This document shows, one piece after another, positions 35,757-60,049 of a DNA stretch of 64,000 bases. The first letter of the stretch is position 1; each line of letters begins with the position of its first letter. A model generated the notes under the pieces. The model saw only the letters and a list, made by a program, of their open reading frames with translations, made no database searches and had not been told where the DNA came from. The position numbers and the translations under genes were made by a program. The DNA is from a virus. The stretch covers positions 1-64,000 of IMG/VR virus record IMGVR_UViG_3300032287_003559; one strand, written 5' to 3'.

Positions 35757-37433
35757 ATGCAAAGGTTTAAACCACATAAAACGGTTGAGCAAATAGCAAA
35801 AAAACATCGTTTAGACGTTGCATTTATACAAAAGCAACTTGATATTGGAGAGCCTATAGAACACGAGCATACTAATGACCATGCTCTTGCAAGAGATATT
35901 GCTCTTCAACATTTGGATGAAATTCCAGACTATTATACTCGTCTTAAAAAAATGGAAGCATCTGCAAAGAAAGAACATAAAAAATTTAAAGATGTAAAAG
36001 AATCTCACGAAGAACAAAGATATTGTCCATTATGTGATAAAAGAGAAACTAGATCGGAGTGTAGTTATGGGGAAAAAGCATGGGATAAGGTATCCGTAAA
36101 AGATGAAGAATATTCAATGGTTCGCTCAGAATTAAAAACTATGGCGGATGCTATTAAGAGATTGGAAATGAAAGTTGGAAAAGGTGAAGGAAATTTAGAA
36201 GCATGGGTACAATCAAAAATCACTAAAGCAGCAGATTATATCGATACTGCAGCAGACTATGTTACAAACGAAGAAATAGAAGAGTCATGCTGGAAGGGAT
36301 ATAAGCAGATAGGAATGAAGAAAAAAGGAAAAAAAACTGTACCAAATTGCGTACCAGAAGAAACTAAATTGGTAGAAAAGATTATTGCTGAGATTATTGA
36401 GGAATCAAAATCGGGAGATTCTTCTCTGCACGATTGGTTCACCAAAAGTAAATCATCGGATGGAAAACCAGGGTGGGTTCAATTAGGTGGAAAATATGCA
36501 GGAAAACCATGTGCAAAACAACCGGGACAAACAACAAAACCAAAATGCGGTAGTTCCAAAATGTCTGCAGAAATGTCCCCAGAAGAGGAAGAAAGAGCTG
36601 CAAGAAGAAAAAGAAAGGAAGATCCAAATCCAGAGAGATCTGGTAAAGCAAGAAATGTTGCAACCGAAGAATACGTCGATGAGGATGCATGTAAAGAAAA
36701 AGTAAAATCGAGATATAAAATTTGGCCAAGTGCATATGCATCTGGAGCACTTGTAAAGTGCCGTAAAGTTGGATCTAAAAATTGGGGCAATAAGTCAAAG
36801 TCTAAAAATGAAGACGTTACTATTGAAGATTTGAATGGTAACACATTTGCAGAAGTTATTGATGTTATTAAACCAGATCCAATTAAAGGTTTTAAATCCC
36901 AGATAGAAGAAGCAACAAGACTTCAATCTGAAACTGGAAATATCATTGCGGTTGTTTTAAGTTGGAGGGGAAAAACATATTCAATTAGAATGTTTTTCCC
37001 ACAAGTATCAATTCCATCAAAAAAAGAAGTAACCTCAGAAATACAAAAAATATACCCAGGATCTATTGTTTTGCAATTCAATGTTTCATCAATTCAAGCG
37101 GGAATGCCGCTCATTCAAGTAGTAAATTCTAAATCAAAAAATTATCTTTTAAACAACAAAACAATTGGTGAAGAAACTATAGAAGAAGTTGCTGCATGGC
37201 AGCGTAAGGAAGGAAAAAACCAAAGTGGTGGACTTAATGAAAAGGGAAGAAAATCTTACGAAAGAGAAAATCCGGGAAGTGACCTTAAAGCGCCAAGCAA
37301 AAAAGTAGGAAATCCGCGTAGAGCATCATTCTGCGCCAGAATGAGGGGAATGAAAAACAAATTGACTTCAGCAAAAACTGCAAATGATCCAAATTCAAGA
37401 ATTAATAAATCACTTAGAGCCTGGAATTGTTAA
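35757..37433 (+). CDS. Mosaic protein with DUF5661- and DUF6321-like parts
   Basis: 558 residues made of distinct small modules. Residues ~1-65 (MQRFKPHKTVEQIAKKHRLD; HTNDHALARDIALQHLDEIP) look like DUF5661. A Cys-rich patch follows near 90 (RYCPLCDKRETRSEC), then SLHDWFTKSKSSDGKPGWVQ with PCAKQPGQTTKPKCGSSK (~223-265), DACKEKVKSRYKIWPSAYAS with GALVKCRKVG (~308-340), a middle alpha/beta part (360-460), and a C-terminal DUF6321-like segment (GGLNEKGRKSYERENPGSDL; RRASFCARMRGMKNKLTSAK). Several modules are basic with paired cysteines, suggesting nucleic-acid binding. It has its own late box and lies between the terminase subunits, so a packaging or virion role is plausible. No enzyme motif recognised. 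Confidence 0.7.
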   Translation: MQRFKPHKTVEQIAKKHRLDVAFIQKQLDIGEPIEHEHTNDHALARDIALQHLDEIPDYYTRLKKMEASAKKEHKKFKDVKESHEEQRYCPLCDKRETRSECSYGEKAWDKVSVKDEEYSMVRSELKTMADAIKRLEMKVGKGEGNLEAWVQSKITKAADYIDTAADYVTNEEIEESCWKGYKQIGMKKKGKKTVPNCVPEETKLVEKIIAEIIEESKSGDSSLHDWFTKSKSSDGKPGWVQLGGKYAGKPCAKQPGQTTKPKCGSSKMSAEMSPEEEERAARRKRKEDPNPERSGKARNVATEEYVDEDACKEKVKSRYKIWPSAYASGALVKCRKVGSKNWGNKSKSKNEDVTIEDLNGNTFAEVIDVIKPDPIKGFKSQIEEATRLQSETGNIIAVVLSWRGKTYSIRMFFPQVSIPSKKEVTSEIQKIYPGSIVLQFNVSSIQAGMPLIQVVNSKSKNYLLNNKTIGEETIEEVAAWQRKEGKNQSGGLNEKGRKSYERENPGSDLKAPSKKVGNPRRASFCARMRGMKNKLTSAKTANDPNSRINKSLRAWNC

Positions 37434-46333: not shown

Positions 46334-46888
46334 ATGACGCATAGACCAGTTGGGGCTGGGTCCTCATTCACATTTACTGCAGGAACTGCATCAACTTCAT
46401 CTACATTTTCAGTTCAATCTGATACTTTAAGAGTTGTTGCTGTTGGTAACGCTGCACATGTTGCAATTGCAGCAAGTCCAACTGCATCAACAACTGATTA
46501 TTATATTCCCTCCGGAACTGCAATAACTCTTGCATTGACTAAAGCATCTAATAGAGTTGTCGGTGTTACTACAGGAACATCAACGATTCTTACCTTTGCA
46601 GAGGGAACTCAGGCACCTTTCGGTGTTGGTGATTATATTAGTTTAACTGCAAATGCACAGTCATATTATAACTTTACTCACCAACAAGTTACGTCAGTAG
46701 ATACTACTTCTGGCATAAATGGATTTTTCCAAGGGAGAATTGTTGTAAGTTATGATTCAAGTGGAATTGTAACTTCCTTCTCTTCTCCAAATGCAACAGC
46801 AGTTATTTCTCAAAGAATTTCTGCTTATGGCGCAACTGGAGATGGATCACTTTATTATCAGCAAGTACAAATTACCAACCAAGCATGA
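46334..46888 (+). CDS. Beta-rich virion structural protein (184 aa)
   Basis: 184 residues (MTHRPVGAGSSFTFTAGTAS...), Ala/Thr/Ser/Gly-rich with no charged clusters, regular beta patterning, and a C-terminal SLYYQQVQITNQA. It resembles small capsid- or fibre-associated beta proteins of marine phages, unnamed. A late box precedes it. Its stop overlaps the gene 21 start (ATGATGA). Confidence 0.65.
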   Translation: MTHRPVGAGSSFTFTAGTASTSSTFSVQSDTLRVVAVGNAAHVAIAASPTASTTDYYIPSGTAITLALTKASNRVVGVTTGTSTILTFAEGTQAPFGVGDYISLTANAQSYYNFTHQQVTSVDTTSGINGFFQGRIVVSYDSSGIVTSFSSPNATAVISQRISAYGATGDGSLYYQQVQITNQA

Positions 46889-47538
46889 TGAAACTTATCA
46901 CAGAAGAAATAGAATCAGTAGAAGTTATTTCTGAAAATGTAAACGGTAAAAAGACTCTGTATATTCAAGGACCTTTCCTTCAGACTGAGCAACCAAATAG
47001 AAATAACAGAATATATCGTCTTCCAGTAATGGAAAGAGAAGTTAAAAGATATACTGAACAGTATGTAAATAAGGGACGTGCTCTTGGCGAACTTGGTCAT
47101 CCAGATGGACCAACTGTAAATCTTGATAGAGTTTCTCATAAGATCGTTTCACTTCATCGTGAAGGAAATAACTTCATTGGAAAAGCGCAGATTCTTTCCA
47201 CTCCTATGGGAAAGATTGCAGAATCTCTCCTTAAGGAAGGCGTAACTTTGGGAGTTTCTTCTCGTGGAATTGGATCTCTAAAACCAACTCGTGAAGGATA
47301 TAACGAAGTAGGCGAAGATTTTATGCTTGCAACTGCTGCTGATATTGTCGCTGATCCTTCTGCACCTGATGCTTTTGTTCAAGGAATTATGGAAGGAAAG
47401 GAGTGGGTATGGGATGGTGGGGTTTTGAGGGAGAAAGAAGCAGAAAACACTAGACGCAGAATAAACACTCTTGTTGATGAAGGAATTCTTGAAGAGTATA
47501 AAATATCATTATTCAATGAGTTTTTAAATTCATTGTAA
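46885..47538 (+). CDS. 21: Prohead core protease gp21
   Basis: 217 residues (T4 gp21: 212). The serine protease fold of the herpes/T4 prohead protease class is visible in GRALGELGHPDGPTVNLDRV (~68-87, with the catalytic His) and LKEGVTLGVSSRGIGSL (~115-131, with the catalytic Ser). The N-terminus (QGPFLQTEQPNRNNRIYRLP) is also conserved. It cleaves scaffold and head proteins after (L/I)-x-E and then itself. Two start ATGs (46885, 46888) are adjacent. Confidence 0.95.
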   Translation: MMKLITEEIESVEVISENVNGKKTLYIQGPFLQTEQPNRNNRIYRLPVMEREVKRYTEQYVNKGRALGELGHPDGPTVNLDRVSHKIVSLHREGNNFIGKAQILSTPMGKIAESLLKEGVTLGVSSRGIGSLKPTREGYNEVGEDFMLATAADIVADPSAPDAFVQGIMEGKEWVWDGGVLREKEAENTRRRINTLVDEGILEEYKISLFNEFLNSL

Positions 47539-56987: not shown

Positions 56988-59124
56988 AGACCTTGTAGTA
57001 GAGCACAAGAAGGTTGAGACTGCCTGCTTTAACGTTCATACGAGGGTTTTGACTCTTCCGATGTGGGAGCGTGCTTCTGGGACCGTCTACGACCTTCTGG
57101 TGGGGCATGAGGTTGGACATGCACTCTTTACCCCCGATGAGGATTGGACTGAAACTGTAAAGGTTCCTCCGCAGTTTGTGAATGTGGTTGAGGATGCTCG
57201 CATTGAGAAACTGATGAAGCGTAAGTATGCTGGACTTGCTAAAACTTTCTTCTCTGGTTATAAAGAACTGAACGAAGAAGATTTCTTTCAACTTGAAGAT
57301 GAAGATGTTTCCAAGTTTAATCTTGCTGACAGGGCAAACCTTTATTTTAAGGTAGGTAATTTTCTTTCTCTTGAGTTTACTGCTAAAGAGAAGGAGATTA
57401 TTGACCTGATTGCAGTTTCTGAAAGTTTTGCAGACGTTCTGATTGCTGCAGAAGAACTTTACAAGTATTGTAAGAAAGAAAAGGAACAAGAAAAGGTTGA
57501 TGAGATTGAAACTCAACAACCTCAAGGTTCTGCAACTTCTCCTACTGAGAATCAATCGGATGAAGGTGAAGGTGATAGTGAAGAAGAAGGTAAAGCAAAT
57601 AAACCCGATACAAATGGTGAGTTGGATGAAAACAAATCTTCCGATAGTAGTCAGCAATCTACTTCTTCTAATGTGAGTGTAGATGAAGAACCTGAAATCA
57701 AGACTGTAGATAATCTTGAGGATAAAATCCGTGAGCTTGTAAGTAAAGATGGATATGAGAATGTCTATGTTGAAGTTCCGAAAGTAAATCTGGAAACGAT
57801 TATCGGCAAGAACTCTGAGATTCATAAAGAGATTACTGGTGCTTTTAATCAGCAACAGAACTCTTACAATGAGTGTAACAACACCACTTCAGTTGATTTG
57901 TTTAAAGAAGCAGATACTTCTTTCCGTCAGTTTAAAGTTTCCGCTCAAAAGGAAGTGAACTATCTGGTGAAAGAGTTTGAGTGCCGTAAGTCTGCGGATT
58001 CTTATGCTCGTGCATCTACTGCTCGCACTGGAGTTCTTGATACTGCTCGTCTTCATTCTTACAAGTTCAGTGAGGATTTGTTTAAGAAAGTGACTGTGCT
58101 TCCTGATGGTAAAAATCATGGACTGATTTTCATTCTGGATTGGTCGGGTTCTATGGCTAATGTTCTTCTGGATACTTGCAAGCAACTCTTTAATCTGATT
58201 TGGTTCTGTAAGAAAGTTTCTATTCCTTTTGAGGTTTATGCTTTCACAAATGAATGGCGACGTAACGCATATGATTATGAAACTGGGAAACATGTTGCAG
58301 CAGACCGTACCTCTCACTATGAAAAGAAAGAAGGTGTGTTTTGTATTGATGAAGACTTTGCCTTGATGAATATTCTCACCAGCAAGGTTTCTGGTAACGA
58401 ACTGGAAAAGCAACTGATGAATATTTGGCGTCTTGCTGTGTATTTTGGAGATACTTATCACACTCCTTATACTTGTCCTTCTCGTCTATATTTGTCTGGA
58501 ACTCCTCTAAATGAAAGTTTGGTTGCTCTGCATCAAATTCTTCCCAAGTTTCAAAGTGAGAATAAACTGCAGAAGGTTCAGTGCGTGATTCTGACTGATG
58601 GTGAAGCAAACGTTCTTCCTTATCATAAAGAAGTGAAGCGTGCTTGGGAAAAACAACCTTATCTTGGAGTTCATGGTATTGGTTCCAATTCTTTTCTGCG
58701 AGATAGGAAACTTGGAACTACCTATAAACTGGATGGTGTTTATCAGGGATATCATAAGTTCACTGATGTGATGCTTCTCAATCTTCGTGATAAGTTTCCT
58801 TTTACAAACTTCATTGGTATTCGGGTTCTTTCCAGCCGTGACGCATATCGCTTCATTAGTCTCTATCATTCTGCTTCTGATGAAGACTATAAGCAGTACA
58901 TTAAAATTCAGGATGATTGGAAGAAACTGAAGAGTTTCACGATTACCAAATCTGGATATCACGCTTACTTTGGTCTTTCTTCCTCTGCTCTGTCTCAAGA
59001 TGCTGAGTTTGATGTTTCAGAATCTGCAACAAAAGCACAAATCAAATCTGCTTTTGTGAAGTCTCTGAAGACTAAGAAACTTAACAAAAAGGTTCTTGGT
59101 GAGTTCATTTCTCTTGTTGCATAA
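56908..59124 (+). CDS. CobT-like VWA protein with HExxH metallopeptidase motif
   Basis: 738 residues. LLVGHEVGHALFTPDEDW (~64-81) contains HEVGH, a zinc-protease motif, with VEDARIEKLMKRKY (~95-108) supplying a possible third ligand region. A long acidic, low-complexity linker follows (~195-270: EEEGKANKPDTNGELDENKS). Then comes a VWA domain with the MIDAS motif FILDWSGSMAN (~409-419), and ILTDGEANVLPYH (~566-578). Cyanophages carry this as a CobT-like 'peptidase'. Its natural partner is the CobS-like AAA+ ATPase at 60088. A direct cobalt-chelatase role is doubtful, since CobN is absent from the window; a MoxR/VWA-type remodelling role is an alternative (inference). In-frame ATGs at 56911 and 56935 are possible starts. 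Confidence 0.85.
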   Translation: MMVSYETNPMAVNHEIKSQLAKLLATEDLVVEHKKVETACFNVHTRVLTLPMWERASGTVYDLLVGHEVGHALFTPDEDWTETVKVPPQFVNVVEDARIEKLMKRKYAGLAKTFFSGYKELNEEDFFQLEDEDVSKFNLADRANLYFKVGNFLSLEFTAKEKEIIDLIAVSESFADVLIAAEELYKYCKKEKEQEKVDEIETQQPQGSATSPTENQSDEGEGDSEEEGKANKPDTNGELDENKSSDSSQQSTSSNVSVDEEPEIKTVDNLEDKIRELVSKDGYENVYVEVPKVNLETIIGKNSEIHKEITGAFNQQQNSYNECNNTTSVDLFKEADTSFRQFKVSAQKEVNYLVKEFECRKSADSYARASTARTGVLDTARLHSYKFSEDLFKKVTVLPDGKNHGLIFILDWSGSMANVLLDTCKQLFNLIWFCKKVSIPFEVYAFTNEWRRNAYDYETGKHVAADRTSHYEKKEGVFCIDEDFALMNILTSKVSGNELEKQLMNIWRLAVYFGDTYHTPYTCPSRLYLSGTPLNESLVALHQILPKFQSENKLQKVQCVILTDGEANVLPYHKEVKRAWEKQPYLGVHGIGSNSFLRDRKLGTTYKLDGVYQGYHKFTDVMLLNLRDKFPFTNFIGIRVLSSRDAYRFISLYHSASDEDYKQYIKIQDDWKKLKSFTITKSGYHAYFGLSSSALSQDAEFDVSESATKAQIKSAFVKSLKTKKLNKKVLGEFISLVA

Positions 59125-59127
59125 ATA
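59120..59127 (+). promoter_or_regulatory. Putative late promoter box
   Basis: CATAAATA overlapping the stop of the VWA gene, 25 bases before the ATG at 59152. A 6-bp inverted repeat AAATAC/GTATTT spans the box and leader. Confidence 0.65.
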
Positions 59128-59151
59128 CCTAAAAAGTATTTCTGCGTAAAA

Positions 59152-60000
59152 ATGAGAACCTATCAAGAATTTGTTTCTGAAATGACCTATGGTAGAGGTC
59201 GTGGACCAATCGGTAGAGCAGATAGGAACAGTGGTAGAAATCGTTATCTGGGGTCTCCTACACCAGAACAGGAAAGAGAAAACAAATCTGCAGCAGATAA
59301 AGCTGCTGCAGATGCTGTTGCAAAATTAAGAAGAGCAAGAGCAAGAGAAATGAAGGAAGAGGTAGAACTTGATGAAGGTATGACGATGAAGGACTTTAAG
59401 GCAAATCGTCAGAAGAATAAAAGAAGAGCTGCTTCTGCCGATGCTGTGAAGAGAGGTCATGTAGGTAAGGAATGGTATAACAGCGGTAGAAAGTATTCTC
59501 CAGATGAAGCAAAGAGAATGCGTTCAAAACTGGATGATGAAGAAAGACGTACAAGACATCGTAGTGCTGTAGAACCTGATAATGAGAGTGATGATAACTT
59601 CTCTGCAGACAAGACGAAGAATCCAAAGAAACTCCGTAAGCAAAAAGCGATGGGAGAACTTGGTGAAGCATTAGATAAAAAATTCGATTCTATGAGAAGT
59701 CGTGGTGGAAGAAGTGCTCCTCCAGAAGAGCGTTCTGTTGGTGGCGAAATGAATAGAAAAAGTAAGGATTATTGGGCGGATACTTTAGGTAAGAATAGAG
59801 ATAGAGGAAAGGGTAGTAAAGCAAAAAGAAGAGCTGCGGCACTTGGGGAGGATAACGTTCAGGAGTTATTCATTACAAGAAAATCTCCAGAACAAAAAGC
59901 AGATGAGGCAAGAAAGAAAAAAGTAGCAACACTCATTCGTTTAATGCAACACGCAAAAGACCCTGCTGCTGATGTTGCTAAGTCCAAAAAGGAAGGTTGA
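59152..60000 (+). CDS. Putative internal head protein with capsid-targeting N-terminus
   Basis: 282 residues, highly charged and basic, probably disordered (RRARAREMKEEVELDEGMTM; RRTRHRSAVEPDNESDDNF; NRDRGKGSKAKRRAAALGED). The first ten residues MRTYQEFVSE closely match the capsid-targeting sequence of T4 internal head proteins (MKTYQEFIAE), after which gp21 cleaves. A late-type box lies directly upstream although its neighbours are replication/early-type genes. Together these point to a DNA-associated protein packaged in the prohead and perhaps injected with the DNA. No other motif recognised. No sequence similarity to T4 IPI-III beyond the targeting peptide is visible. Confidence 0.65.
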   Translation: MRTYQEFVSEMTYGRGRGPIGRADRNSGRNRYLGSPTPEQERENKSAADKAAADAVAKLRRARAREMKEEVELDEGMTMKDFKANRQKNKRRAASADAVKRGHVGKEWYNSGRKYSPDEAKRMRSKLDDEERRTRHRSAVEPDNESDDNFSADKTKNPKKLRKQKAMGELGEALDKKFDSMRSRGGRSAPPEERSVGGEMNRKSKDYWADTLGKNRDRGKGSKAKRRAAALGEDNVQELFITRKSPEQKADEARKKKVATLIRLMQHAKDPAADVAKSKKEG

Positions 60001-60026
60001 TGGACCAGTTGCTGAACTGACTACTC

Positions 60027-60049
60027 GGGGTCTCTAGGACCCCTTTTTT
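60027..60049 (+). terminator. Rho-independent terminator
   Basis: GGGGTC / GACCCC stem, TCTAG loop, then six T residues. It closes the 59152 gene. Confidence 0.93.

Follow-up and report, generated by a model that had tools for sequence, protein, structure and literature searches.

The open reading frame (ORF) at 59152..60000 (+) of the window, the whole 64,000-nucleotide stretch analysed here, probably encodes a protein that is packaged inside the phage head and processed by the prohead protease. It begins with a T4-type capsid-targeting sequence (CTS) and belongs to a family of shuffled modules. Its siblings at the same locus end in a lyase of S-adenosylmethionine (SAM), a compound on which many bacterial defences depend, and the window copy is most likely a deletion allele that has lost this domain. 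The virus record is 175 kb long and the window covers its first 64 kb; among public records, the window matches cyanophages best.

The ORF encodes 282 residues. The preliminary description was right about its start, its N-terminal decamer and the highly charged nature of its product (net charge +24, pI 10.1, 43% charged residues). As it had noted, the decamer MRTYQEFVSE (59152..59181 (+), predicted cut after Glu10) is identical to the T4 CTS, MKTYQEFIAE, at 7 of 10 positions. Amber-suppressor substitutions in T4 showed that targeting depends mainly on residues 4 and 7, and processing on residues 8 and 10 (PMC9026906). The window decamer keeps these functional positions as Y4, F7, V8 (I8 in T4) and E10, that is, the aromatic residue 4, Phe7, hydrophobic residue 8 and Glu10 that define the class. 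A gp21-type prohead protease, the presumed processing enzyme, is encoded in the same genome at 46885..47538 (+) (Peptidase_S77 profile, E=2.1e-35). Among the 1965 possible starts in the phage genome, just two, those of this ORF and of a cytidyltransferase ORF at 75289, show the strict pattern. Conditioned on Met1 and on the N-terminal composition of a cyanomyovirus, seven or more matches to the T4 CTS are expected by chance at ~3e-6 per protein, or ~7e-4 per 220 genes.

Scanning IMG/VR with M[KR]T[FY]QEF recovered T4-like internal head proteins, which served as positive controls. Records of ~170 kb yielded proteins starting MKTYQEFIAE, MKTYQEFITE or MKTYQEFINE, and some of the proteins found match PHROGs families annotated as internal head or internal virion proteins, in agreement with the T4 decamer. 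At a minimum length of 60 residues, this motif alone picked at least 149 distinct ORFs. Among the matches listed, a hydrophobic-x-Glu site lies at residues 8-22 in 132 of 149 ORFs, against 8 of 147 at the control residues 40-54. Without their first ten residues, the ORFs fall into at least 37 unrelated families in which SAM lyases are prominent, and at least 38 match the lyase domain with a single lyase query. A second-round profile count (53/149 among the matches listed) was set aside because that profile had absorbed the shuffled cassette described below and so included cassette-only ORFs. The motif is short, and one might ask whether the decamer is a chance resemblance on a product that is not a virion protein. 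This is very improbable given its expected frequency per genome, the co-occurring protease site, and the association of both tag and modules with virions elsewhere, and it was rejected on the counts and the co-conservation.

The second largest cargo group among the matches listed is a CTS family of at least 30 members (L225, L240 and 28 others) with RRTGEGGRIGAERKKSAPERRR; its tested member, L225, has no Pfam match. The CTS-tagged ORFs L159:962-1504 and L202:2458-2910 carry MKTFQEFIAEAKR and a YHGT motif, and one of them weakly matches PARP / ADP-ribosyltransferases, recalling the packaged T4 Alt. In the window itself, a 558-residue ORF at 35757..37433 with a late box upstream starts with MQRFKPHKTVEQIAKKHRLDVAFIQ, similar to the DUF5661 portion of L114:2325-3413, a CTS-tagged ORF.

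Conservation of the decamer among homologues could be followed at two distances. It is present in the seven closest homologues (with Thr at position 8 in L008), which is weak evidence alone because these are recent relatives, whereas many distant relatives that share only the cassette have other N-termini. A tblastn search of phage records with the first 45 residues returned chance-level matches only, so the window N-terminus by itself finds no relatives in that way. The whole protein has no match in Pfam or PHROGs, and its structure model, with a pTM of 0.16, gives no confident fold. Searches of PHROGs and Pfam found no similarity between the mature part and the T4 IPI/IPII/IPIII family, and homology to that family was rejected.

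The protein had been called otherwise unknown, which it is not: it is a member of a shuffled-module family. Relatives are encoded on 139 viral-contig stretches, of which 80 were fetched. In most of them the similarity is confined to residues ~66-175, a cassette that occurs with many different N- and C-terminal modules. In the window protein the cassette spans residues 76-169 (GMTMKDFKANR...KQKAMGE; 59377..59658 (+)), and across the 80 fetched loci it is joined to different modules. Since many distant cassette relatives are without the window-type CTS, packaging of the cassette may use other tags.

A second cassette protein of 306 residues is encoded in the genome (G000 73165-74085 (+); L084:9666-10586), with a late box 29 nt upstream; it shares TKNPKKLRKQKAMGELGE identically with the window protein and differs at its N-terminus (MEGKHIKDLMEAYLQMYAP). 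In phage S-SZBM1, a 707-residue multi-module protein (UNH61311.1; L001:3836-5959) lies beside neck and terminase genes and has an interior CTS-like ITYREFIAEG followed by a lyase-like module.

The left edge of the cassette coincides with a predicted protease site at Glu75 (LDE/G, the slash marking the cut; 59374..59376 (+)). In 42 distinct upstream contexts, which share descent and are not 42 independent events, Glu occupies P1 in 42/42 and one of Ile, Leu, Val and Met occupies P3 in 42/42, while P2 and P4-P6 vary. The same pattern of Glu at P1 and a hydrophobic P3 is found at the lyase edge in 14/14. It fits a cut after Glu with a hydrophobic P3. Candidate sites of the hydrophobic-x-Glu type are also found at the right edge of the cassette, Glu169 and Glu172 (AMGE/L and LGE/A; 59656..59667 (+)), and at Glu233 and Glu238 (LGE/D and VQE/L; 59848..59865 (+)). 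None of these internal sites is in the preliminary description. A basic, mostly unfolded chain with several protease-type sites would also suit a prohead core or scaffold-like protein, as T4 gp22, gp67 and gp68, which helps to build the core, is cut small, mostly leaves the head and is no injected effector; T4 core proteins are cut to short fragments by gp21 (PMC5694885). Such a role is unlikely here, however. The genome already has a gp22-like gene adjoining the gp21 gene, the siblings carry an enzyme that a disposable scaffold would not need, and module relatives persist in mature virions of the cyanophage S-CREM2. A head-internal protein that stays in the virion after processing is the reading we favour.

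The closest relative, L004, lies at the same locus and is 96.5% identical in nucleotide sequence to ~60002 and 93.5% identical from 60004. Its protein has 441 residues, and the C-terminal part matches the SAM lyase family PF23780 (E=1.3e-14), passing the curated cut-off; L007, L015, L031 and L008 agree with L004. By comparison with L004, ~644 bp are absent from the window at a breakpoint placed by nucleotide identity on either side (59998..60004 (+)); in L004 they hold the lyase domain together with some or all of the small gene that follows. L005 and L006 are also without the lyase but keep the next gene, and have lost the domain separately. It is this combination of lyase-bearing siblings of the L004 type and of L005/L006 with the next gene retained that makes a deletion in the window most likely. 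PF23780 has no match in the window protein. A lyase search of the phage genome found no match either, but a control search also matched nowhere, so absence from the genome is unproven.

In 30 of 30 lyase domains the residues G, Y/W, E, S/T, Q and D/E are kept, and by order and spacing these correspond to G56, Y58, E69, S71, Q104 and E105 of Svi3-3, whose key residues were taken from the literature (PMC7877911). For a model of one CTS-lyase protein (mean pLDDT 73.7), the seven best solved structures were T3 SAM lyase and Svi3-3, with probability 1.00. These were found by structural comparison; when solved structures were queried by sequence, neither the lyase domain nor its profile gave a match. 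By profile, active-site residues and fold, L004 and the CTS-lyase ORFs are predicted S-AdoMet lyases. Since the domain was deleted in the window copy and, separately, in L005/L006, what is left of the gene might be a decaying remnant, functionless after lyase loss. We consider this very improbable, because the frame is open, the late box and CTS are intact, and dN/dS values of 0.14 against L004 and 0.11 against L005 point to purifying selection, although part of that divergence may predate the deletion and a recent relaxation is possible.

A late-promoter-like box, CATAAATA (also given as CATAAATACCTAAAAAGTAT), starts at 59120 (59120..59127 (+)), 32 nt upstream of the ATG, and is conserved in 7/7 close relatives, so that the late-type box claimed earlier stands. 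The same extended box precedes late-type genes, and similar boxes are found 25-48 nt ahead of many of them in this phage genome, late type being judged by sequence resemblance and by how the genes are arranged around gp21; no such box lies directly ahead of either flanking gene. As ATAAATA is not over-represented in the window (19 occurrences, below a shuffle mean of 30), the case rests on strand bias, position and conservation. Among the matches listed, ATAAATA occurs within 75 nt upstream of 41 of 148 CTS ORFs on viral contigs, compared with 1.9% in random stretches of the same loci. The flanking genes encode a phrog_459 peptidase and a MoxR/CbbQ-like ATPase, which places the gene outside the main structural cluster, in line with the preliminary description, to which the flanking genes looked early. 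A terminator-like hairpin (GGGGTCTCTAGGACCCC TTTTTT) follows the gene at 60027..60049 (+).

Published virion data from other cyanophages bear on packaging. The virion proteome of Synechococcus phage S-CREM2 comprises 52 proteins (PMC10665884), and the 219 protein-coding genes of its record were taken as the test set. Three patterns were run, all written after viewing the N-termini of detected proteins (their positions are independent of this, the allowed residues perhaps not fully): the T4 rule (F/Y at position 4, F at 7, I/L/V/M/F at 8, E at 10) chose 4 of 219 proteins, all four detected in the virion (p=0.003); for a looser rule 5 of 6 were in the virion (p=0.003); and for a search over the first 30 residues 7 of 8, including the Cas9 gp12 (p=2e-4). 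The T4-rule proteins are the SAM hydrolase gp6, the kinase gp14, gp136 and the cytidylyltransferase gp154. Eight S-CREM2 proteins share a module with 65 distinct relatives of the window protein, and 8/8 are in the virion (p=6.5e-6). The words 'targeting' and 'N-terminal' are absent from the S-CREM2 paper (PMC10665884). Annotated as S-adenosyl methionine hydrolase and detected among the virion proteins by 19 unique peptides (PMC10665884), gp6 has a CTS-like start, MKDFDSFLEE, and the same lyase domain as the siblings (59% identical to L069 over 168 columns). It differs from the window protein in being without the middle cassette and having its own C-terminal extension. A pattern nearly the same as the T4 rule, applied to the first 150 kb of S-SM1, picks a single protein, GC190. 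This cytidylyltransferase was reported from the virion by Sullivan et al. (PMC3037559); virion proteins are unlabelled in the S-SM1 record, which was used only for proteins named by these authors.

The S-CREM2 virion Cas9 (L090:7704-10313 (-)) has the CTS-like LRFASFMAE at residues 17-25, and the virion proteins gp13 and gp14, encoded next to it, also begin with CTS-like decamers. The second CTS protein of the window genome (G000 75289-76563 (+); L084:11790-13064) starts with MKSFLNFLTE, continues with a cytidyltransferase domain (phrog_395) and has a late box 28 nt upstream; its relatives are virion proteins in S-SM1 and S-CREM2.

The gene, predicted to be expressed late, would yield the precursor of a head-internal protein. 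The N-terminal decamer, with its aromatic residue 4 and Phe7, would dock this precursor to the prohead core, and a gp21-type protease would cut after Glu10 and probably again at the hydrophobic-x-Glu module edges (Glu75, Glu169/172, Glu233/238). Basic, largely unfolded polypeptides would be left, which would share the head with the DNA and enter the cyanobacterium on ejection. The last precursor segment of the same-locus siblings would be the SAM lyase; a cut of this kind would free it, and it would reach the cell in time to deplete the SAM on which restriction-modification or related defences draw. With its deletion allele, the window phage would have the targeted basic carrier without lyase, any role of that form being putative. 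The packaging and gp21 cut after Glu10 proposed earlier are well supported by the functional positions, the co-occurring protease site and the S-CREM2 virion rule, and for the window protein they are predictions. The counter-defence role proposed with them is well supported for the lyase-bearing siblings, because these end in a SAM lyase; it does not carry over to the window copy, which has lost it, and with no confident fold and no lyase an effector role of the window protein is unproven.

We lean towards the broader view that marine T4-like phages use the T4-type tag and prohead-protease sites as a general cargo system. Late precursors built of interchangeable cassettes would be cut in the prohead into basic peptides and enzymes (SAM lyase and, in S-CREM2, also kinase, cytidylyltransferase and Cas9), and every virion would bring a counter-defence load ready for use, the contents of which would vary as modules are swapped or deleted at fixed loci. 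The tag itself gives a simple sequence rule to predict what a marine virion injects and offers an explanation for the entry of SAM lyase, kinase, cytidylyltransferase and Cas9 into cyanophage virions, and whether cyanophages counter host defences just as their DNA enters the cell becomes directly testable.

CTS-tagged internal proteins were previously known from T-even coliphages, and the tag now extends to cyanophages, with support from published virion data. With T4 IPI, IPII and IPIII (MKTYQEFIAE) the window protein shares the functional CTS positions, a basic product and a presumed gp21 cut after Glu10, and it is predicted to be expressed late as they are. Unlike them, it has several internal protease-type sites, shuffled cassettes and no similarity beyond the CTS, and its siblings carry a SAM lyase. 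The T4 proteins are injected and inhibit GmrSD-type restriction enzymes (PMC12373910, PMC9391042). T4 Alt is a packaged enzyme processed by gp21 (PMC9026906); the window protein, predicted to be packaged and cut likewise, is without its ADP-ribosyltransferase domain, a fold to which some other CTS ORFs have weak matches. Compared with the phage SAM lyases (T3 SAMase and Svi3-3; PF23780), the window copy differs in the absence of the domain, whereas the C-terminal domain of its siblings agrees in profile, key residues and fold. In T3, the SAMase is the earliest viral protein to be expressed once the phage has entered (PMC8406200); the sibling lyase, in contrast, sits behind a CTS and a protease-type site.
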